From Pararhizobium sp. IMCC21322 (GTDB lineage Bacteria; Pseudomonadota; Alphaproteobacteria; Rhizobiales; GCA-2746425), in contig NZ_CP132335.1 in the NCBI RefSeq assembly GCF_030758295.1, forward strand, positions 4,316,412 to 4,380,411: DNA of 64,000 nt, written 5' to 3'. The position numbers and the translations under genes were made by a program. Under the pieces are notes generated by a model. That model saw nothing but the letters and a program-made list of their open reading frames with translations, searched no databases and was not told the DNA's origin. Positions 37,575 through 51,808 of the stretch are shown one piece after another; within the stretch, counting starts at the first letter, position 1, and each line of letters begins with the position of its first letter.

Positions 37575-40500
37575 CTAAACGGATGTGCGCGAAAGGCCGC
37601 TATTGCGTTTCTGTTCCATTTCCTGCAACGCGCGACGGTAATCAACCGGCATCACTTTAACGAATTTCGGCCGGAACTCATCCCACTTTGCCAGTATGTT
37701 CTGAGCAAGACTGGAATCCGTATAGTGCACGTGGCTCGATATCAGCGTGTATAGCCGTTCTTCATCGTGGCTTGTCATGTTTGAGGACACATCCACGCGG
37801 CCATGATGCTCGATATCACCGCCATGATGATGCAATTGCTCCATCAGATCGTCTTCTTCCGGTACCGGCTCCAGATCAACCATCGACAGATTGCACCGTT
37901 CGGCAAATGTACCGTCTTCATCCAGCACATAGGCAACACCGCCCGACATGCCGGCTGCAAAATTGCGCCCGGTTGGACCAAGCACCGCCACGACGCCACC
38001 GGTCATGTATTCGCAACCGTGATCGCCAACCCCTTCGACAACGGCAACGGCACCCGAGTTCCGAACGGCAAACCGCTCCCCGGCAACCCCCCGGAAATAG
38101 GCTTCCCCCTCGACAGCACCGTAAAGCACAGTGTTGCCAACAATCATCGAGTGTTCCGGCACGATCTTTGTGTCTGCTGGCGGGCGCACAACCAAGCGTC
38201 CCCCACACAGGCCCTTGCCAACATAGTCATTGGCATCACCCTGCAGATCGATCGATACACCACGTGTCACAAAGGCGCCGAAAGACTGACCCGCCGTTCC
38301 GGTCAACCGAATGGAAATCGTGTCGTCAGGCAAGCCTTTCATGCCATAGCGTTTGGCAACTTCACCACTCAGCATGGCACCGGCGGAGCGATTGCGATTC
38401 TGGATTTCCGAAACAATTGTCACCGGTGTTTTGTGTTCCAAAGCCGGCATTGCCTCAGCAATGAACTTGCGGTCCAGAACATCCTGAATCGGATGGTTCT
38501 GCAGCTGCGTATGACGGATTTCGTCAGGCCCGGCATCCGGTTTGAAGAACAGGCCAGAAAACTCAAGCCCCTCGCTTTTACCCTGGGCAATGACGCGGTC
38601 CTGCTGCAACAGCTGTGACTGGCCGACAAGATCTTCAAACTTCCGGATCCCCATGGTCGCCATGAGCTGACGCACTTCTTCTGCAACATAGAAGAAGTAA
38701 TTGACAACATGCTCTGGTGTCCCGTGGAAACGCTTGCGCAGAACTGGATCCTGCGTGGCAATTCCGACAGGGCAGGTATTCAGATGGCATTTGCGCATCA
38801 TCAGGCAGCCCGCCGCAATCAAAGGGGCAGTCGAAAACCCAAACTCGTCTGCGCCAAGCAATGCACCAATCACAACATCACGGCCCGTTTTCAGGCCGCC
38901 ATCCACTTGCAGGGCAATACGCGAGCGCAAGCCGTTCAGCACAAGTGTCTGATGTGTTTCAGCAAGACCCAGCTCCCAAGGGCTACCCGCATGTTTCAGG
39001 GATGTCAGCGGAGAGGCCCCGGTGCCGCCTTCAAAGCCGGAGATGGTAATGTGATCCGCCCGTGCCTTCGCAACACCTGCTGCAACCGTTCCAACACCAA
39101 CCTCGGACACCAGCTTTACCGATACATCCGCCGTTGGGTTGACGTTCTTCAGATCATAAATGAGCTGAGCCAAATCCTCGATGGAGTAGATATCATGATG
39201 CGGTGGCGGAGAAATCAGCCCGACACCCGGTGTGGAATGACGCACTTTAGCAATCACTGCATCCACCTTGTGACCAGGCAGTTGCCCGCCCTCGCCTGGC
39301 TTGGCACCCTGCGCCACCTTGATCTGCATCATGTCAGAATTGACCAGATATTCTGTGGTCACGCCAAAGCGACCAGACGCAATCTGTTTGATGGCGGAAC
39401 GTTTCGGGTTTGGTCGACCATCCGGCAGTGGCTGGAACCGTTCAGGCTGTTCGCCACCTTCCCCTGTATTGGACTTGCCGCCAATACGGTTCATCGCAAT
39501 CGCCAGGGTCGAATGCGCTTCCATGCTGATGGAGCCAAAAGACATGGCGCCGGTTGAAAAGCGCTTCACAATATCGGTGGCGGATTCCACCTCATCAATC
39601 GGGATGGCTTCATCTGCCAACTCAATGTCAAACAGGCCCCGCAGTGTCATCAACACTTCGGACTGATCGTTTATCGTCTCGGCATACTCCTGATAATCCG
39701 CCCAGCTTTCACCGCGCACAGCATGCTGCAGTTTGGCAACGGCATCCGGTGTCCAGGCATGGGCTTCGCCGCGCACGCGGTACATGTACTCGCCGCCTAC
39801 ATCCAACGCAGTGCGCAACACAGGATCATCGCCAAAAGCCCCGTCATGCCGGGTCAGCGTTTCTTCCGAAACTTCCTTCAGGCCGATGCCTTCAATTTGT
39901 GTCGCCGTTCCGAAAAAGAAGCGTTTTATAAAATCCGATTTCAGACCAACTGCATCAAAAATCTGCGCGCCGCAATAAGATTGATAAGTCGAGATGCCCA
40001 TTTTGGACATCACTTTCAAGATCCCCTTATCAATGGCTTTGATATAGCGCTGCACCACTTCCTGCGCATCCACAACATCCGGGAAATCGCCCCGCGTATG
40101 CATATCAGACAGGGTTTCAAATGCCAGATAAGGGTTTATCGCTTCCGCCCCATAGCCGGCCAGAACACAGAAGTGATGCACTTCACGTGCCTCACCTGTC
40201 TCTACCACAAGACCAACGGAGGTTCGAAGACCTTTACGGATCAAATGATGATGAACGGCAGCGGTTGCCAGCAAGGCCGGGATTGCAATTCTTTTCTTGC
40301 CGATCAGCCTGTCTGACAGAATGATGATGTTGTAGCCGCTCTGCACGGCGCGTTCTGAACGCTCACAAAGTCGGTCAAGAGCCGCCTCCATGCCAGCGGC
40401 ACCAGTGTCGGCACTGTAGGTAATATCCAGCGTTTGCGTCTGGAATTGATTGTCACCAATGTCGCTGATCAACCGGATTTTTTCCAGATCATCATTGCTT

Positions 40501-42317
40501 AGTATCGGTTGACGCACTTCAAGGCGCTTACGTTCTGACTGCCCTTCCAGATCGAACAGATTTGGCCTTGGGCCAATAAACGACACCAGGCTCATCACAA
40601 TCTCTTCGCGGATCGGATCAATCGGCGGATTCGTGACCTGGGCAAAATTCTGCTTGAAATAGGTATAGAGCAGCTTGGATTTTTGACTCAGCGCCGAAAT
40701 CGGCGTGTCCGTGCCCATCGAGCCCAGGGCTTCCTGACCCGTTGTCGCCATGGGTGCCATCAAGATTTTCAGATCTTCCTGACTGTAGCCGAAAGCCTGT
40801 TGCCGATCGAGCAGACTTGCACGGGAATGCGGCGCTCTTGCCCCAACAGGCGGCAGGTCCTCAAGTACGATCTGAGTTCGGGCCAACCATTCCTTATAGG
40901 GGTTCGCATTGGCAATCCGGGCCTTCAATTCATCATCAGCGATGATGCGGCCTTCTTCCAGATCAATCAGCAGCATTTTGCCTGGCTGCAGACGCCATTT
41001 TTTCACGATACGGGATTCGTCAATCGGCAACACGCCCACTTCGGATGCCATGATCACGCAGCCATCATCTGTCTGTATATAGCGCGCAGGACGCAGCCCA
41101 TTACGATCCAGCGTCGCCGCTATCTGGCGGCCATCGGTAAAGGCAATCGCGGCAGGACCGTCCCACGGCTCCATCATCGCCGCGTGATAAGCATAAAAGG
41201 CGCGACGATCTTCACCCATCAGCGGGTTTCCTGCCCAGGCTTCCGGCACGAGCATCATGGCTGCATGTGACAGCTCATATCCGCCCATTGTGAGGAATTC
41301 CAGAGCGTTGTCGAAGCAGGCTGTGTCTGATTGCCCTTCATAGGAAATTGGCCACAACTTTGGCATCGAATCACCGAACAAGGGAGATTTTACCGACGCC
41401 TGGCGCGCTGCCATCCAGTTGACATTGCCGCGAAGTGTATTGATTTCACCATTATGGGCCACCATCCGATAGGGATGAGCCAGTTTCCAGGACGGAAATG
41501 TATTGGTTGAAAAACGCTGATGCACAAGTGCCAGAGCAGATTTGAACAGGGGGTTTTTCAAATCTACATAATAAGGTCCGAGCTGATCGGCCAGGAACAT
41601 GCCTTTATAGACAATTGTGCGCGATGACAGAGACACAACATAAAAGTCTGTGTCTTCAGCGCCATTATTGGCATCATAAATCCGGTTGGAAATCATTTTG
41701 CGCAACAGGAACAGCTTGCGTTCAAACGCGTCCTGATCTTCGATCTCCGACCCACGGCCAATAAACACCTGCCGGGAATAAGGCTCGGCTGCCAAAACCA
41801 GCTTTGACAGGCCGGCATTGTTGACAGGCACGTCTCGCCAGCCGAGCACAACCTGATTGCAGCTGGTCACAACTTCTTCGACAATACGCTCAAAATCAGC
41901 ACGCGTGGCCGCATCCTGAGGCATGAACAGAAAACCGACAGCATAATGGCCAGGTTCCGGAAGGTCGAATTCGCAGACATCCTTGAACAGGCCGTGTGGC
42001 ATTTGGCTCAGCAGGCCAGCGCCATCGCCCATCAACGGGTCAGCACCAACAGCACCGCGATGCTCCAGGTTTTCAAGAATCTGGATACCGTCCTGAATGA
42101 TCTTGTGGGTCGCACCACTCTTCATATTGGCGATAAAACCAACACCGCAGGCATCATGTTCATTGGCTGGGTTATAAAGACCCTGTGCAGCCGGCGCACC
42201 ATTATGGTGTTGTGCACCCGGTTGACGCTCGGTGGGTTGGTGTTTGGGTGCAGGATTCCGCACGGTCATATCAGCCGGTCCAACTGTGTTGAGCAGAGAA
42301 ACTCTCTTTTGCGTCAT
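37575..42317 (-). CDS. gltB: Glutamate synthase (NADPH) large subunit
   Basis: This 1580-residue enzyme is chosen from the Met at 42317, which has GGAG 8 nt upstream and gives normal length (the frame extends to 42392). The catalytic N-terminal Cys is residue 57 in [10 protein letters not shown], so a 56-residue pro-sequence must be removed, longer than in Azospirillum or E. coli. The glutaminase domain (about 57-480), central domain, FMN-binding synthase domain with the 3Fe-4S motif [11 protein letters not shown] (near 1160) and GXGXG-rich C-terminal helix follow in order. It joins glutamine amide nitrogen to 2-oxoglutarate. The 677-nt region to bufA may hold regulatory elements. Confidence 0.95.
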
Positions 42318-42661
42318 TTCCAACACTCCAAACGTTTGGGCCACAAACATCTGTGCCCCGTCATTGTCATTCACTCCCGAATTTGGCGACACGCCTTCAT
42401 TCGGGTCGCGCTTTCCTGAATTTCAGGAACGCGGCTCGGGCGAGCGGGCCGGCAAATGCCGATGCTCATGTTTTGGGTCACACGGCCGTCATAGCCGCTT
42501 GTGGCATACGAGACCACCCGAGGGTGCTTTTTGCACCGACAGGCAAGGAATTCGCTACCGAACTCCGCATAGAGCACACGGAAGAACACTTGTGTCATTC
42601 CGTGTGCTCTATGCAGAAGTGCAGATGATATCGCTTTATGAAGGATATCACCAGTAATTTA
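42318..42661. other. gltB upstream region rich in inverted repeats
   Basis: No gene is supported here. It contains TCCTGA-ATT-TCAGGA (42414-42428), GGTGC-TTTTT-GCACC (about 42526-42540), the 17-bp inverted repeat 42567-42614 and TGATATC / GATATCA (42626-42650). I found no sigma-54 TGGCAC-N5-TTGC site. Confidence 0.5.
42567..42614. repeat. Perfect 17-bp inverted repeat
   Basis: GCATAGAGCACACGGAA (42567-42583) and its exact complement TTCCGTGTGCTCTATGC (42598-42614) flank a 14-nt loop that itself holds ACAC-TT-GTGT. There is no T run on either strand, so it is not a standard terminator. It lies about 250 nt before the gltB start. Confidence 0.85.
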
Positions 42662-42678
42662 GGACAGCATTGCTGTCC
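42662..42678. repeat. Short perfect hairpin beside a possible small ORF
   Basis: GGACAGC / GCTGTCC 7-bp stem with 3-nt loop, 2 nt past the stop of the small ORF at 42681. It may be a 3' end stabiliser for that transcript; no T run follows. Confidence 0.6.
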
Positions 42679-42680
42679 AA

Positions 42681-42797
42681 TTATGCGCTGAAAATGCCAG
42701 ATATGGCAGCAAAGAGCAAGCCCATAATCACATGCGAGATGCTTCCAAGCCCCGTTTCCCCTTGCGTTCTTGAAAGATAAGATCGTTTTTGCGGCAC
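42681..42797 (-). CDS. Possible 38-residue membrane peptide
   Basis: From a GTG at 42797 the frame reads V(M)PQKRSYLSRTQGETGLGSISH and then a hydrophobic C-terminal helix ending ...LLFAAISGIFSA before TAA. The composition (basic head, Gly-Ser turn, one membrane helix) looks protein-like, and the gene is on the gltB strand. Against it: no good ribosome site is seen before the GTG (nearest GGA is 15 nt up). I do not recognise a family. Confidence 0.35.
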   Translation of the reverse strand: MPQKRSYLSRTQGETGLGSISHVIMGLLFAAISGIFSA

Positions 42798-42993
42798 TTT
42801 TTTTATAAATATTCCAGCAATGCGCGGCTAAACGCCTCTCACAGCTCCGTGATGGAAAGGTGAGCCCTCGTCACATCTGTTTGATTTTCAATTGATTTCG
42901 AACTCGGTCATTGTTCCTCTTGTCAGACGCAACGGCGAAACAACCTGCGGTCTGGACACAACAATATGAACCGGTCAATACACGGAGAACTCA

Positions 42994-43299
42994 ATGTCCG
43001 CTTTCACTAAAACTACTCTTTCAGCCGTACTTGTTGCAGGCGCAATGGCAACAGCACTTTCTTCAGTTTCTATTTCCACAAATGCTGAAGCCGCAGGCGA
43101 CGAAAAATGCTTCGGCGTTGCTCTCGCTGGCAAGAACGATTGTGCAGCCGGCCCCGGCACAACATGTGCAGGCACCTCCAAAGTTGATTTTCAGGGCAAT
43201 GCATGGAAACTCGTCCCGGCTGGCTCTTGCGAAACCATGGAATTTGATGGTGATCGCAAAGGCTCATTGGCCGCTCTGGAACGTGACATCCCCGCATAA
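42994..43299 (+). CDS. bufA: DUF2282 precursor peptide, bufferin-type (BufA)
   Basis: This 101-residue peptide has a signal peptide (about 1-34, ending STNAEAA) and a core (35-101) with four cysteines at 39, 50, 58 and 79 in the contexts [20 protein letters not shown] and AGSCETM. This matches the DUF2282/BufA family of bufferins: ribosomal peptides whose cysteines an MNIO enzyme modifies, reported to bind copper and protect in copper stress. The leader is a true Sec signal, unusual for RiPPs and a hallmark of this group. GGAGA lies 5 nt before the ATG. A hairpin separates it from bufB. Confidence 0.88.
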
Positions 43300-43317
43300 T
43301 TTTTCGCATGCAACACT

Positions 43318-43353
43318 TTCGGCCCGGAACGTGATACAACGTATCGGGCCGAA
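43318..43353 (+). promoter_or_regulatory. Hairpin between bufA and bufB
   Basis: TTCGGCCCG (43318-43326) pairs perfectly with CGGGCCGAA (43345-43353) across an 18-nt loop that contains ACGT...ACGT. It lies 18 nt after the bufA stop with no T run, so it probably stabilises the bufA message or partly attenuates reading into bufB. Confidence 0.65.
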
Positions 43354-43386
43354 TACCCTTTAGTTCGTCAGACCCTGAGACCTGAT

Positions 43387-44283
43387 ATGTTCCAGACCAC
43401 GCCTCCCGCTTCCTCCGAAAAACGTGTCGATGCGCGTATTCCGGATCGGGCCGGTGTCGGGCTGAAAGCGGAACATTACTCAGACATACTTAATCTGAAA
43501 CCCGATCTTGGCTGGTTTGAGGTTCACCCCGAAAACTATATGGGCGCTGGTGGCCCGCCACATCATTTTCTTGAAAGCATCCGCGAGCATTATCCGCTTT
43601 CCTTGCATGGGGTGGGACTATCCATTGGCGGAGAAGGCGCTTTAAACCAGGAACATCTTGGTCGCCTTAAAGACCTCAACGAACGTTATCAGCCCGGATT
43701 GTTTTCCGAGCATCTGGCCTGGTCCAGCCATGAGACCCATTTTCTCAACGATCTGCTGCCTGTTCCTTATACTGAACAGACCCTTGCGCGCGTCATAGAT
43801 CATATCGACGAAGTACAGCAGTTCATTGGACGGCAAATGCTGCTGGAAAACCCCTCGCTCTATGTGGCTTTCGATCAGTCTTCCATGAGCGAAATAGAAT
43901 TTCTCACCCGCATCACCGATCAAACCGGCTGTGGGCTGCTGCTGGATGTGAACAACGTCTATGTAAGCGCCACGAATCAGCAATATGATCCACAAAAATA
44001 CATCGCCCAGTTCCCCTTACATATAGTCGGCGAAATTCATCTGGGCGGCCATGCCCCGGATAAGGATGAAACCGGTGCGCCATTGCTGATCGACGCTCAT
44101 GACCGAGCCGTTGATGAAGCCGTCTGGGCCTTGTATGAACGAACCATTGTTCTTGGTGGGCCACGCCCGACCTTGATTGAATGGGATAATGATGTGCCTG
44201 ATTTTGCGACACTTCTGGATCAGGCCAAACAGGCTGAGCTGATAATGGAGCGTAATCCGCTGCTTGGCCGGCGTCATGGCTAG
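43387..44283 (+). CDS. bufB: DUF692 MNIO-type modifying enzyme (BufB)
   Basis: This 298-residue protein belongs to the UPF0276/DUF692 family of TIM-barrel multinuclear non-heme iron enzymes. Candidate metal ligands are H74 (SLHGVGL), E154 (LLENPS), D187 (LLLDVNN), H218 (GEIHLGG), H222 and E265 (LIEWDND). In bufferins the enzyme, with its partner, turns cysteines of the BufA core into modified sulfur groups, reported as thiooxazoles. Length is normal and ligands look intact. The stop overlaps the bufC start by 8 nt. Confidence 0.88.
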   Translation: MFQTTPPASSEKRVDARIPDRAGVGLKAEHYSDILNLKPDLGWFEVHPENYMGAGGPPHHFLESIREHYPLSLHGVGLSIGGEGALNQEHLGRLKDLNERYQPGLFSEHLAWSSHETHFLNDLLPVPYTEQTLARVIDHIDEVQQFIGRQMLLENPSLYVAFDQSSMSEIEFLTRITDQTGCGLLLDVNNVYVSATNQQYDPQKYIAQFPLHIVGEIHLGGHAPDKDETGAPLLIDAHDRAVDEAVWALYERTIVLGGPRPTLIEWDNDVPDFATLLDQAKQAELIMERNPLLGRRHG

Positions 44284-45040
44284 CGAAAGCCTGCGCCCAT
44301 TTGCTGAAGCGCTTTTACAGCCTGGCAGCCCCGTGCCTGATGGCGTCACAAACCCCGATGGCGTTCCGGCAACAAAGCGGTTTGATGTCTATCGCAATAA
44401 TGTCATTGTCAGTCTCATTGATGCGCTTGCGAGCCGTTTTCCGGTGGTTCAAACCCTTGTAGGTGAAGAGTTTTTTCAGGCTGCAGCAAGAGAATTCGCA
44501 ATCAATCACCCGCCAGCATCTCCGGTCATGTTGCATTACGGGACCGGGTTTCCCGACTTTCTGGACGGGTTCCCACCCGCAGCCTCCGTGCCTTATCTGG
44601 GCGATGTGGCGCGGCTGGAAAGCGCGCGACGGGCTGCCTACCATGCAGAAAATGCGCAACCGCTGGACCCGGCTCAGCTTGAACAGATCGCACCTGACCA
44701 GTTTGAGGTTCTTACATTTCAAACACACCCATCCCTGTCTTTGATTGAGTCTGACTACGCCATTTTATCAATCTGGCAGGCTAACAGTCAGGGCAGCGCG
44801 TTGGATGTTCCAATCGCTACACCGCAATCAATTCTGATCTGTCGCCCCATGCTGGAGGTCGAAGTTCGCGGCCTGCCTCAAGGCGCATATGCTTTTCTAT
44901 CCGCCTTGCAACAAGGCGGTACACTTGGTGCAGCAGCCCAGGCAGGGCTTCTGTCCAATCCTGCCTTCGATCTGGCAAGCACATTAACCGGTGCCCTGTC
45001 AGCGGGCGTCTTCACTGATTTTAAAATAACAAAAATATAG
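44276..45040 (+). CDS. bufC: DUF2063 partner protein (BufC)
   Basis: This 254-residue protein has the DUF2063 N-terminal part (about 1-105: FDVYRNNVIVSLIDALASRFPVV, then REFAINHPPASPVMLHYG) and a C-terminal part that may recognise the precursor. The family works with DUF692 enzymes as the substrate-recognition partner in bufferin and related RiPP routes. Its ATG lies inside the bufB stop region (ATGGCTAG), so translation is coupled. The longer 44264 start in the same frame is a TTG and less likely. Confidence 0.87.
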   Translation: MASESLRPFAEALLQPGSPVPDGVTNPDGVPATKRFDVYRNNVIVSLIDALASRFPVVQTLVGEEFFQAAAREFAINHPPASPVMLHYGTGFPDFLDGFPPAASVPYLGDVARLESARRAAYHAENAQPLDPAQLEQIAPDQFEVLTFQTHPSLSLIESDYAILSIWQANSQGSALDVPIATPQSILICRPMLEVEVRGLPQGAYAFLSALQQGGTLGAAAQAGLLSNPAFDLASTLTGALSAGVFTDFKITKI

Positions 45041-45053
45041 TTTGGGGACTTCC

Positions 45054-45620
45054 ATGAACGGCATAATCGATTCACTCACATGGCTGCATGACCGGGTATT
45101 TGGCGCGCTGGAAATTGAGACACAGGACTGGTTCCTGGGCCTGGCTGCCAGATTTGTCTTTGCAGCAACTCTGCTGATCTATTTTTGGAAGTCAGCGGCA
45201 ACGAAACTCGGTGACGGAATTCTTGGTTTCATAACGCCATCCAGCGGAGCCTACATTCAGATTTTCCCCAAAGCCTTTGAAGCTGCCGGGTATGACAGTT
45301 CTGCCCTTGCTCTGCATTATCATCTGATTGTCATTCTTGGCACATGGGCCGAATTTATTTTGCCCGCCCTCATTGTCATTGGCTTGTTTACCCGTCTTGC
45401 GAGCCTGGCCTTCATTGGCTTTATTGCGGTGATGACCATTGTCGACATTACCGGTCATGGAGCTGATGCAACAACCATTGGTGCATGGTTCGATGGTGAT
45501 CCGGCATCTCTCATCATGGATCAACGGGCCTTCTGGATTTTTGTGCTTCTGGTGCTGGTCATTAAAGGCGGTGGCAAATTATCGGTGGATTTCCTTCTTG
45601 GGCGATCCAGAGGCTACTGA
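45054..45620 (+). CDS. bufD: DoxX-family membrane protein of the buf operon
   Basis: This 188-residue protein has four hydrophobic segments (about 30-48, 85-108, 115-135 and 160-182) with the DoxX-like pattern FVFAATLLIYFWKSAATKLGDG. DoxX proteins accompany DUF2282-DUF692-DUF2063 clusters; their role is unclear, perhaps electron supply or membrane handling of the product. The ATG has GGGGA 7 nt upstream and lies 13 nt after the bufC stop. The name bufD follows the gene order used for bufferin operons and should be checked. Confidence 0.75.
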   Translation: MNGIIDSLTWLHDRVFGALEIETQDWFLGLAARFVFAATLLIYFWKSAATKLGDGILGFITPSSGAYIQIFPKAFEAAGYDSSALALHYHLIVILGTWAEFILPALIVIGLFTRLASLAFIGFIAVMTIVDITGHGADATTIGAWFDGDPASLIMDQRAFWIFVLLVLVIKGGGKLSVDFLLGRSRGY

Positions 45621-45641
45621 TTAACACCTGTCTTGAAATGA

Positions 45642-45670
45642 ATGACGCAAGCCGTTACGGCTTGCGTCAT
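45642..45670 (+). promoter_or_regulatory. Perfect hairpin overlapping the ltaE start
   Basis: ATGACGCAAGCC (45642-45653) pairs exactly with GGCTTGCGTCAT (45659-45670) across GTTAC. It closes the buf operon and ends inside the start codon of the next gene, so it may both end buf messages and limit ltaE translation. No T run follows. Confidence 0.55.
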
Positions 45671-46718
45671 GATGTTTGCAAGTGACAATTGGGCCGGTGC
45701 CTGCCCGCAGGTTCAAAAAGCTTTGGCTGATCTCGGGCCGGATGTTGCACCCGCCTATGGTGGTGATGCGTTAAGTGCGTCGGTCAATGCCAGACTTTCC
45801 GAAATTTTTGAAGCGCCTGTTGAGAGCCTTATGGTGGCAACCGGCTCCGCCGCCAATGCATTGGCCCTGGCTCATTTTGCCAAACCCGGCGGCATTACCC
45901 TTGCCCATAAAAACGCTCATGTGATGGTCGATGAATATAACGGGCCGGAGCGTGTCAGCCCCGGCCTGAAAATTCTCGGCCTTTCAGGACACGCAGGCAA
46001 GCTCACCACTGATGGTCTCTGCGATGTGCTGCAACAGTTCCCTGATGGCGTATCACGTCAGGGACGTCTGACCTGCCTGTCGCTCACCCAGGCAACTGAA
46101 CTCGGCCAGTCTTACACGCCAACGGACATTTCCGCTCTCGCGAATCTGGCAAAGCAAATCGGTCTGGGCGTTCATATGGATGGAGCACGCTTTGCAAATG
46201 CCATCGCTCACCTGAATTGTTCGCCCGCTGATCTAACCTGGCGGGCCGGTGTCGATTGCCTGTCACTTGGTTTCACCAAAAACGGGGCCTGGGCCGCAGA
46301 TTTGCTGATCTTCTTTGACGGGCAGTCAAGCGTCGAAGCCGGTTACATACGAAAACAAATGGGCCAGAACTTTTCCAAGCCCCGTTTCATGGCCGCCCAG
46401 ATTCTTGCCATGCTGGAAAACGATACCTGGTTGAAAAATGCTGGACACGCCAACCAGCAAGCAACCAATCTAGCCAACGGCCTTGCTGCCAGCGACAAAT
46501 GTTCCGTGCCCTTGATGCCTCAATCCAATGAAGTCTTTGCCTATTTCGAAGCCCGAGACATTGAGAGATTGCAAACAGCAGGTGCCAGTTTCTATCCCTG
46601 GCCGGACGAAGACATCCCTGACGATCTGAAGCAAGCAGACAAAACCCTGATGCGTCTTGTCTGCAGCTTTGCCACCAGTTCAAAAGATGTCGAGGCTTTC
46701 CTGACCCAACTTGGCTAG
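45669..46718 (+). CDS. ltaE: Low-specificity threonine aldolase family
   Basis: About 349 residues from the ATG at 45669 (45672 equally possible); family members begin MFASDNWAGA, so the earlier in-frame ATG at 45642 in the hairpin is rejected. Motifs: VATGSAANALALAHFAKPG (PLP binding), VHMDGARFANAIAHL and the PLP-lysine in LSLGFTKNGAWAADLL. It splits threonine or allo-threonine to glycine and acetaldehyde. It follows the buf operon but is probably unrelated to it. Confidence 0.9.
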   Translation: MMFASDNWAGACPQVQKALADLGPDVAPAYGGDALSASVNARLSEIFEAPVESLMVATGSAANALALAHFAKPGGITLAHKNAHVMVDEYNGPERVSPGLKILGLSGHAGKLTTDGLCDVLQQFPDGVSRQGRLTCLSLTQATELGQSYTPTDISALANLAKQIGLGVHMDGARFANAIAHLNCSPADLTWRAGVDCLSLGFTKNGAWAADLLIFFDGQSSVEAGYIRKQMGQNFSKPRFMAAQILAMLENDTWLKNAGHANQQATNLANGLAASDKCSVPLMPQSNEVFAYFEARDIERLQTAGASFYPWPDEDIPDDLKQADKTLMRLVCSFATSSKDVEAFLTQLG

Positions 46719-49908: not shown

Positions 49909-50988
49909 ATGGCTGATCTGAAGACCCGCATCCTGGAAGATATTGCACTGACCGGGCCCATGCCCCTGTCACGTTACATGAATCTGTGTCTGGGGGACCC
50001 CGTTTCCGGCTACTACATGACCCGCGATCCGTTCGGTCATGGGGGCGATTTCACCACGGCTCCGGAAGTCAGCCAGATGTTCGGCGAACTCGTTGGTGCC
50101 TGGCTTGTCGCCGCTTGGCAAGCTCTGGGCCGCCCATCGCGAACACGTTTGGCAGAGTTGGGGCCTGGGCGCGGCACCTTGATGGCCGATTGTCTGCGCA
50201 GCCTGGCTCTGGAACCTGATCTTATGCGTGGTCTGGAAATCGACATGGTGGACATGAGCCCCACACTTATAGCCGCCCAGCAAGAAAAACTGTCAAAGGT
50301 CCCCTGCCCGGTTCGTTGGCATGGCACCTTGCCCGACAGCGATCTTCCGACTTTGTTGATTGCCAATGAATTCTTTGACGCTCTGCCAGTTCATATTCTC
50401 GTAAAAACGGAAAAGGGCATCGCAGAACGCCACATTACTGCATCGCAGGAGGGCAAGCTTGGTTTCGCTGATCTTCCGACCAAACTGCAAATCAGCCAGG
50501 GCCAAATCGATGCAATCCCCACCGGGACCGTGTTTGAACTATCCCCGGAGCGCTGTGATGTTGCCAAGAATATCGCTGCCGGGATCAAAGCAAATGGCGG
50601 CGCCGCTCTCCTGATCGATTATGGCTATGTCCAGCCTAAAACCGGCGCAACCTTCCAGGCCCTTACAAATCACCAAATGGTGGACCCGCTGGATCAACCG
50701 GGGGAGGCCGACCTGACCGCCCTTGTTGATTTCACATCCTTGGAAAAATGCTTCAAATCAATGGATATCCACGTGTCCGAACCGGTCAGCCAGATGGACT
50801 TTTTGCTGAATCTGGGACTTCTGGAAAGGGCCGGGCAATTGGGCTCAGGTCAATCGCAGGAGATGCAAACCGGCCTTCAGCAGGCTGTGACCCGTCTCGT
50901 ATCCCCGGACGAAATGGGGACCCTCTTCAAGGTTCTGGCAGCGGCAAGTTTCGATGATCCGATGCCCGGCTTCCAGAAATCATCTTGA
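49909..50988 (+). CDS. MidA/NDUFAF7-like SAM methyltransferase (DUF185)
   Basis: This 359-residue protein has a SAM-binding glycine motif in LAELGPGRGTLMAD (about 80-93) and the family strings FTTAPEVSQMFGELVGAW (near 45-62) and LIANEFFDALPVHI (near 150). The mitochondrial homologue NDUFAF7/MidA methylates Arg of complex I subunit NDUFS2 and is needed for its assembly. The gene follows lgt with 12 nt between and overlaps the frame of pgeF, so lgt-midA-pgeF are cotranscribed. Confidence 0.87.
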   Translation: MADLKTRILEDIALTGPMPLSRYMNLCLGDPVSGYYMTRDPFGHGGDFTTAPEVSQMFGELVGAWLVAAWQALGRPSRTRLAELGPGRGTLMADCLRSLALEPDLMRGLEIDMVDMSPTLIAAQQEKLSKVPCPVRWHGTLPDSDLPTLLIANEFFDALPVHILVKTEKGIAERHITASQEGKLGFADLPTKLQISQGQIDAIPTGTVFELSPERCDVAKNIAAGIKANGGAALLIDYGYVQPKTGATFQALTNHQMVDPLDQPGEADLTALVDFTSLEKCFKSMDIHVSEPVSQMDFLLNLGLLERAGQLGSGQSQEMQTGLQQAVTRLVSPDEMGTLFKVLAAASFDDPMPGFQKSS

Positions 50989-51019
50989 TTTTACCCCATC
51001 AATCCGGTCACCTGTGCCA

Positions 51020-51808
51020 ATGATAAAAACCTTTGTCCCTGCCCCGTTCACGACTCACCCAGCCCTTGAAGGCGGTGGAATCCTGCACGGCTTCTTCGGC
51101 CGTCAGGGCGGCATCTCAAAAGGAATTTATGACAATCTGAACTGCGGCGTCGGGTCAGATGATCTGCAGGCCCATGTCCTGCACAATCGACAGGTGCTGA
51201 CACAAACGCTCGTTGGAGCAGACCGACCACTGATTACACCCTACCAGATTCACAGCCCCAAATGTCTGGTTGTCACAGGCCCTTGGCCAAATGGGGAATC
51301 AGAACAATGCGACGCCTTGGCAACGACAACGCCCGATATTGTTCTGGCGGTCGGCTCAGCAGATTGCGGTCCGGTCCTGTTTGCCGATGCGGACAACCGT
51401 GTCGTGGGAGCGGCTCATTCCGGCTGGAAAGGGGCCATTGGCGGCGTATTGGAAAGTACGATTGCACAAATGGAGGCTCTTGGTGCAAAGCGTGATCGCA
51501 TCAGTGCGGTTCTCGGGCCTACCATTTCGCAGAAGTCCTATGAGGTTGGCGCAGAATTCCGCGAGACATTCCTTCAGCATGACGCCAGGAATTCAGTCTA
51601 CTTCGCCGAAGGGGCCAAGGAAGGGCACTTTCAATTTGGTCTGCCGTCCTACATTGTTGACAGATTAAATGCCTGCGGACTTGCCAAGGCGGAATGGACC
51701 GGTCAATGTACCTACCTTGAGGAAACGGCGTTTTTCAGCTATCGCCGCACCACACACCGACAAGAGCCAGATTATGGCCGCCAACTAGCTGCAATTTCAA
51801 TCACCTGA
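51020..51808 (+). CDS. pgeF: Peptidoglycan editing factor, laccase-domain family (PgeF)
   Basis: About 262 residues from the ATG at 51020 (MIKTFVPAPF); the frame extends to 50954. Catalytic and metal features are YQIHSPKCLV, GSADCGPVLFADA and AAHSGWKGAIGGVLES, with YLEETAFFSYRR at the end. The family includes PgeF, which removes L-Ser wrongly placed in peptidoglycan stem peptides in E. coli. It is sometimes annotated polyphenol oxidase. It follows the MidA-like gene closely. Confidence 0.9.
   Translation: MIKTFVPAPFTTHPALEGGGILHGFFGRQGGISKGIYDNLNCGVGSDDLQAHVLHNRQVLTQTLVGADRPLITPYQIHSPKCLVVTGPWPNGESEQCDALATTTPDIVLAVGSADCGPVLFADADNRVVGAAHSGWKGAIGGVLESTIAQMEALGAKRDRISAVLGPTISQKSYEVGAEFRETFLQHDARNSVYFAEGAKEGHFQFGLPSYIVDRLNACGLAKAEWTGQCTYLEETAFFSYRRTTHRQEPDYGRQLAAISIT

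Follow-up and report, generated by a model that had tools for sequence, protein, structure and literature searches.

The four open reading frames between positions 42994 and 45620 (+) of the DNA analysed here, a 64,000-nt stretch of the Pararhizobium sp. IMCC21322 genome ("the window"), raise two related questions: do they make up a complete bufferin operon, as an earlier note had proposed, and if so, how might such an operon be regulated? All four are present, in the order canonical for Buf1: bufA (42994..43299, +), encoding a Buf1 (DUF2282) precursor of 101 aa (Pfam DUF2282, 2.2e-24); bufB (43387..44283, +), encoding an MNIO (DUF692) enzyme of 298 aa (Pfam MbnB_TglH_ChrH, 8.2e-105); bufC (44264..45040, +), encoding a DUF2063 partner (Pfam DUF2063, 2.5e-26); and a gene for a DoxX-like membrane protein of 188 aa (45054..45620, +; Pfam DoxX, 2.7e-4). 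The profile comparison that the note had called for thus places the DUF2282, DUF692 and DUF2063 proteins in their families by Pfam match, and the DoxX-like protein with a weak match under the curated cut-off. Buf1 loci run in the order bufABC, often followed by doxX, as here; the presence of these genes and of their conserved residues is shown directly, and we regard it as very probable that the locus is a standard Buf1 bufferin operon.

The precursor is as the note had described it, a 101-residue frame with cysteines at positions 39, 50, 58 and 79. It scores 85.6 bits against Pfam DUF2282 (PF10048; cut-off 22.4), with no match in NCBIfam, and all 81 aligned sequences (the window and the best 80 of 571 relatives ranked by BufB) retain the four cysteines. 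Judged by eye, the N-terminus has the classic n-, h- and c-regions of a putative Sec-type signal (MSAFTK, a hydrophobic stretch, then NAEAA); the core, which includes PAGSC, is typical, and its PGTTC spacing is common to many relatives. In published Buf1 it is the central pair of cysteines that is modified, the outer pair being joined in a disulphide (PMC12452194, legend of Fig. 3), so that modification of all four BufA cysteines is not expected. Two related loci, L006 and L013, have two DUF2282-like open frames 5' of bufB.

BufB scores 386.9 bits against the NCBIfam model MNIO_BufB ("MNIO family bufferin maturase"; curated cut-off 310). Loss of metal ligands from the DUF692 protein had been named as a finding that would speak against the operon; the conserved positions are intact, both in the 81-sequence alignment and by comparison with the solved MNIO structure 3BWW. 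In the alignment, 28 His, Glu, Asp, Asn or Cys positions are conserved in 78 or more of the 81 sequences, 25 of them in all 81, with E108 and N121 kept in 80 and D227 in 78. BufB aligns with 3BWW at 8.5e-43 and is identical to it at H74, H109, E154, D187, N189, N190, H218, D236, H238 and E265, the C-terminal part of the alignment (D236, H238, E265) being weak when taken alone (i-Evalue 0.17); these ten residues common to both proteins are invariant across the 81 sequences. Residues of this kind are presumed, from what is known of other MNIO enzymes, to hold the irons.

The overlap of the DUF2063 gene with bufB is also as claimed, and amounts to 20 nt if translation starts at TTG 44264 (258 aa) or 8 nt if it starts at the in-frame ATG 44276, 12 nt inside (254 aa). 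Domain and length suggest that BufC is a DUF2063 partner of PME-type 1, a group of about 250-260 residues, and the bufC frame is intact and conserved (14 relatives, 37-89% identical). Neither the single BufC sequence nor a 15-sequence profile matched a solved structure, so that its RRE half is putative, although 3DEE is named as a typical relative (PMC12452194). The DoxX-like protein reaches 21.9 bits, slightly under the Pfam curated cut-off of 23.6, and a DoxX match is found in 11 of 11 members of its alignment (the window and 10 relatives, 51-94% identical), the best at 2.6e-8. The same alignment supports ATG 45054 as a better candidate start for doxX than TTG 45042. Directly 3' of doxX lies a perfect 13-bp inverted repeat (45642..45670, +), read from the sequence and absent from the list of the terminator scan, which is a possible end of the operon. 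The repeat overlaps the mechanical start codon of the following threonine-aldolase-like ORF, whose true start is probably ATG 45669 or 45672.

How unusual is such an operon? It is an ordinary one, of a well-described kind found in thousands of bacterial genomes; DUF2282 genes are reported from 4072 fully assembled genomes (PMC12452194). The IMCC21322 genome (5.25 Mb, single contig) has one DUF2282 match and one match to the MNIO family, and a search for a second gene of either family elsewhere in it gave none at E <= 0.001. A bufA homologue is present in all of the best 80 (of 571) BufB relatives, adjacent to bufB except in L015, so that the operon is not a chance feature; the two genes are neighbours in 103 of the 104 loci of the spacer survey described below. 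bufA is carried by each of the five genomes searched in the genus, always with bufB beside it, by 38 of the 61 genomes in that search, some of them fragmented, and by 26 of 120 genomes drawn across the phylum. The nearest named relative among those compared is Rhizobiales bacterium IMCC20636 (L003; order Hyphomicrobiales), with BufB 92% identical, and the MAG L004 has a BufB 99% identical. Matches to BufB are also found on 352 of 72,556 plasmid records, among them records from Escherichia (73), Klebsiella (18) and Salmonella (8).

Apart from the operon's own products, the scan of the surroundings took in GltB, a GltD-like protein, a DUF459 lipase-like protein, a lytic transglycosylase, a nucleotidyl transferase, a Beta_elim_lyase protein (which we take to be the threonine-aldolase-like one), a tRNA-binding-domain protein, YbjN ("putative sensory transduction regulator"), Lgt, a methyltransferase, a Cu-oxidase_4 protein and an M24 peptidase. 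The gene for the Cu-oxidase_4 (laccase-type) protein, at 50954-51808, is about 5 kb downstream of the operon, beside the methyltransferase gene and lgt.

With regard to regulation, the earlier note had seen no sigma/anti-sigma pair or copper regulator nearby, and there is none among the 16 proteins in and around the operon. Its suggestion that control may differ from that in Caulobacter is strengthened by the genome, which has no match to NrsF (the Caulobacter positive control was detected), and by the region 5' of bufA, in which no SigF-type promoter is found; the locus thus has neither of the two marks, NrsF gene and SigF-type promoter, of the SigF-NrsF-controlled Buf1 subtype. The promoter was ruled out by pattern searches: the exact site GTAACC-N15-18-CGAA does not occur in the 64-kb window, and GTAACC-N16-CGAA with up to two mismatches has 33 matches in the window against 37.8 expected, none of them between gltB and bufA. 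Two substitutions were likewise allowed in the SigF-site search of the source paper (PMC3511200). As to a sigma-70-type promoter, the five promoter-like sites in 42300-46000 (2.9 expected) include none 5' of bufA on the plus strand. The lack of NrsF is itself ordinary, because 30 of 50 related genomes, hand-picked from 80 loci, are also without a match, the other 20 having one. An NrsF-like gene lies in the compared flanks of roughly 16 of 80 related loci, an approximate count in that the profile frame (stop-to-stop) takes in a stretch that is out of frame and some of the loci are truncated. A clean single-copy Buf1 operon in an NrsF-less Hyphomicrobiales genome offers a simple place to seek an alternative regulator.

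A second level of control may lie within the operon. The bufA-bufB spacer is predicted to form an RNA hairpin (43318..43353, +) with a 10-bp outer stem (UUCGGCCCGG/UCGGGCCGAA) and an inner 4 bp, without a clear U-tract; its folding energy is -29.6 kcal/mol (z -4.59), and none of 200 shuffles is as stable. It is not listed by the terminator scan, and the search for an Rfam family in 42300-46000 gave only two matches, both below threshold and to a single miRNA family, one on each strand. The same hairpin is found in the spacers of IMCC20636 and L004. Covariation within the genus (four sequences) is weak, with two-sided changes in 2 of 21 predicted pairs, one in the hairpin and one in a downstream helix. 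As aligned, one sequence, L086, breaks 4 of the 14 hairpin pairs, although its spacer by itself forms a strong hairpin (z -5.06).

Is such a hairpin a wider feature of these spacers? The survey scored 104 of 135 sequences (the window and L003-L136, with L001 and L002 omitted as copies of the window); 31 loci dropped out because only plus-strand ORFs were scanned and many loci are in the opposite orientation, or because one of the genes was truncated or could not be located. By a simple start-codon rule, on which the spacer lengths rest, 17 of the 104 loci have a bufA-bufB spacer shorter than 25 nt, too short to carry such a hairpin, and in one the genes are non-adjacent. The spacer has z <= -2 in 55 of the remaining 86 loci, which are not fully independent (L019 and L045 share one spacer, as do L056 and L104), against 4 of 86 and 3 of 86 for same-length stretches inside bufB. 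As a further control, co-directional intergenic gaps of 40-180 nt were taken from the 81 aligned sequences with a crude ORF caller; z <= -2 is reached by 42 of 64 spacers of that size and by 10 of 48 of these gaps. A run of at least five T in the next 8 nt follows the hairpin in only 4 of 54 spacers with z <= -1.5, so most of these hairpins are not textbook terminators. We infer that the hairpin probably gives bufA mRNA an excess over bufBC mRNA, either by stabilising it or by terminating part of the transcripts; its enrichment provides a testable idea of how such operons might make more precursor than enzyme. A limited literature search on hairpins in RiPP operons gave nothing on bufferins, and the available portion of the main landscape paper has no mention of a terminator, hairpin, stem-loop, attenuation, promoter or glutamate synthase.

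The position of the operon is a further point to consider. It sits between the divergent gltB, the gene for the glutamate synthase large subunit (37575..42392, -; Pfam GATase_2, Glu_syn_central, Glu_synthase and GXGXG), and the threonine-aldolase-like gene, within a neighbourhood spanning 37575-46718. The same divergent pair, on one contig and with 652-1856 nt between the matches, is found in 19 of the 38 bufA-bearing genomes, from 15 families, a survey in which adjacency may be missed in fragmented genomes; in three of them (G004, G012 and G015) the gltB-adjacent copy matches DUF2282 more weakly (62, 50 and 50 bits). Among the best 80 (of 571) loci by BufB, 13 have gltB in the compared flank. 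Seen from the side of gltB, the best 30 loci divide into 13 with bufA divergent, 6 with a threonine-aldolase-like gene instead and 11 with neither in the compared stretch, and in 4 of these 6 (G014, G027, G032 and G047) bufA was not found genome-wide. Because the threonine-aldolase-like gene is there without bufA, the operon sits in a wider gene neighbourhood, gltB-(buf)-threonine aldolase.

Between gltB and bufA lies the palindrome GGACAGCATTGCTGTCC (42662..42678; 0 mismatches), which recurs as GGACAGN5CTGTCC. With up to three mismatches it has 2 matches in the window against 0.32 expected, a number that 5 of 100 shuffles reach. Exact copies occur at 24 sites in 17 of 41 genomes, hardly above chance, since the pattern written backward, as a control, occurs at 16 sites in 13 genomes. 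The placing is more regular: 13 of the 17 genomes have a site 280-433 nt upstream of their gltB match, 6 of them with bufA beside gltB and 7 without. As this position persists where bufA is missing, the palindrome is assigned to gltB and is most likely a gltB operator; as an operator of bufA it was rejected, the site following gltB rather than bufA.

By analogy with the Caulobacter Buf1 system, the peptide would be modified, exported and able to bind copper. BufA would be made with its Sec signal; a BufB-BufC complex would convert the central cysteines (by position, Cys50 and Cys58) to thiooxazoles in the cytoplasm; Sec would export the modified peptide, in which Cys39 and Cys79 would form a disulphide; and exported BufA would chelate excess copper in the periplasm, with DoxX as an accessory membrane protein. 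For thiooxazoles a loss of mass and an absorbance at ~305 nm are reported. Copper chelation by Buf1 is reported (PMC12452194), and the SigF-controlled Caulobacter homologues are induced by copper, disruption of the sigma factor impairing growth in copper (PMC8224329). Both reports argue against the idea that this intact bufferin set has a main role other than copper, for instance in gold, chromate, cadmium or general envelope or sulphur stress. Homologous Caulobacter operons respond to chromium and cadmium (PMC3511200), and the absence of NrsF here would fit such a role, as would the gold response of the homologous Legionella operon; the Legionella promoter, however, responds to copper too, at 37 C (PMC5413113). 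We consider a main role other than copper possible but rather unlikely. Still harder to defend is the idea that BufB or BufC lacks activity and the precursor is exported unmodified, binding metal through its free cysteines: the conserved BufB positions are intact, the bufC frame is intact and conserved, and in the five genomes of the genus bufB accompanies bufA throughout, which together make this reading most improbable.

A further reading is shared control of the divergent bufA and gltB, with copper stress, which would inactivate the Fe-S enzyme glutamate synthase, adjusting both from one intergenic region. Inactivation of this enzyme (GOGAT) by copper in E. coli is described in a review (PMC10903455) and makes a gltB-buf coupling conceivable, and recurrence of the divergent pair within 0.65-1.9 kb across 15 families is in its favour. 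The other 19 bufA-bearing genomes, some of them fragmented, are without the arrangement, however; to judge from the 13/6/11 split of the gltB loci, the linkage can be put down to a wider conserved neighbourhood; some 600 nt lie between the two genes; and the one conserved palindrome there tracks gltB. Shared control is accordingly very unlikely. The more general proposal, that the Hyphomicrobiales bufferin operon is anchored beside and coupled to glutamate synthase and that the hairpin is a general device setting the precursor:enzyme ratio in Buf1, also seems to us improbable.

A standard Buf1 operon thus remains the preferred reading, and the comparison with known systems bears on its details. 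The Buf1 operon of Caulobacter vibrioides (CC3254-3257 / CCNA_03363-03366) has the same four families in the same order (PMC3511200, PMC8224329), but is SigF-NrsF-controlled, whereas the IMCC21322 genome has no NrsF match and, within two mismatches, no SigF site upstream of bufA. The GIG (gold-induced gene) operons of Cupriavidus metallidurans and Legionella pneumophila, of which the Legionella one shares the four gene families (PMC5413113), were characterised through induction by gold and copper. Bufferins are united with related peptides in the captophorins (PMC13097082), and the oxazolin/EGKCG systems (HvfABC) and other captophorins (fontiphorin, gonophorin) similarly combine a related MNIO and DUF2063 partner with a Sec-signal precursor (PMC12452194, PMC13097082). 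Oxazolin precursors are made of EGKCG repeats, whereas the precursor here is a DUF2282 protein, and membership in the oxazolin (HvfABCX) group was rejected on NCBIfam scores under the cut-offs: 235.7 of 360 bits for HvfB, 45.7 of 142 for HvfC (with BufC) and 26.4 of 80 for HvfX. Closest of all are the operons of IMCC20636 and the MAG L004, which have the same neighbours, namely gltB, the threonine-aldolase-like gene, the tRNA-binding-domain gene and a gene that is presumably proC, and which, as far as compared, differ from the IMCC21322 operon in sequence only.
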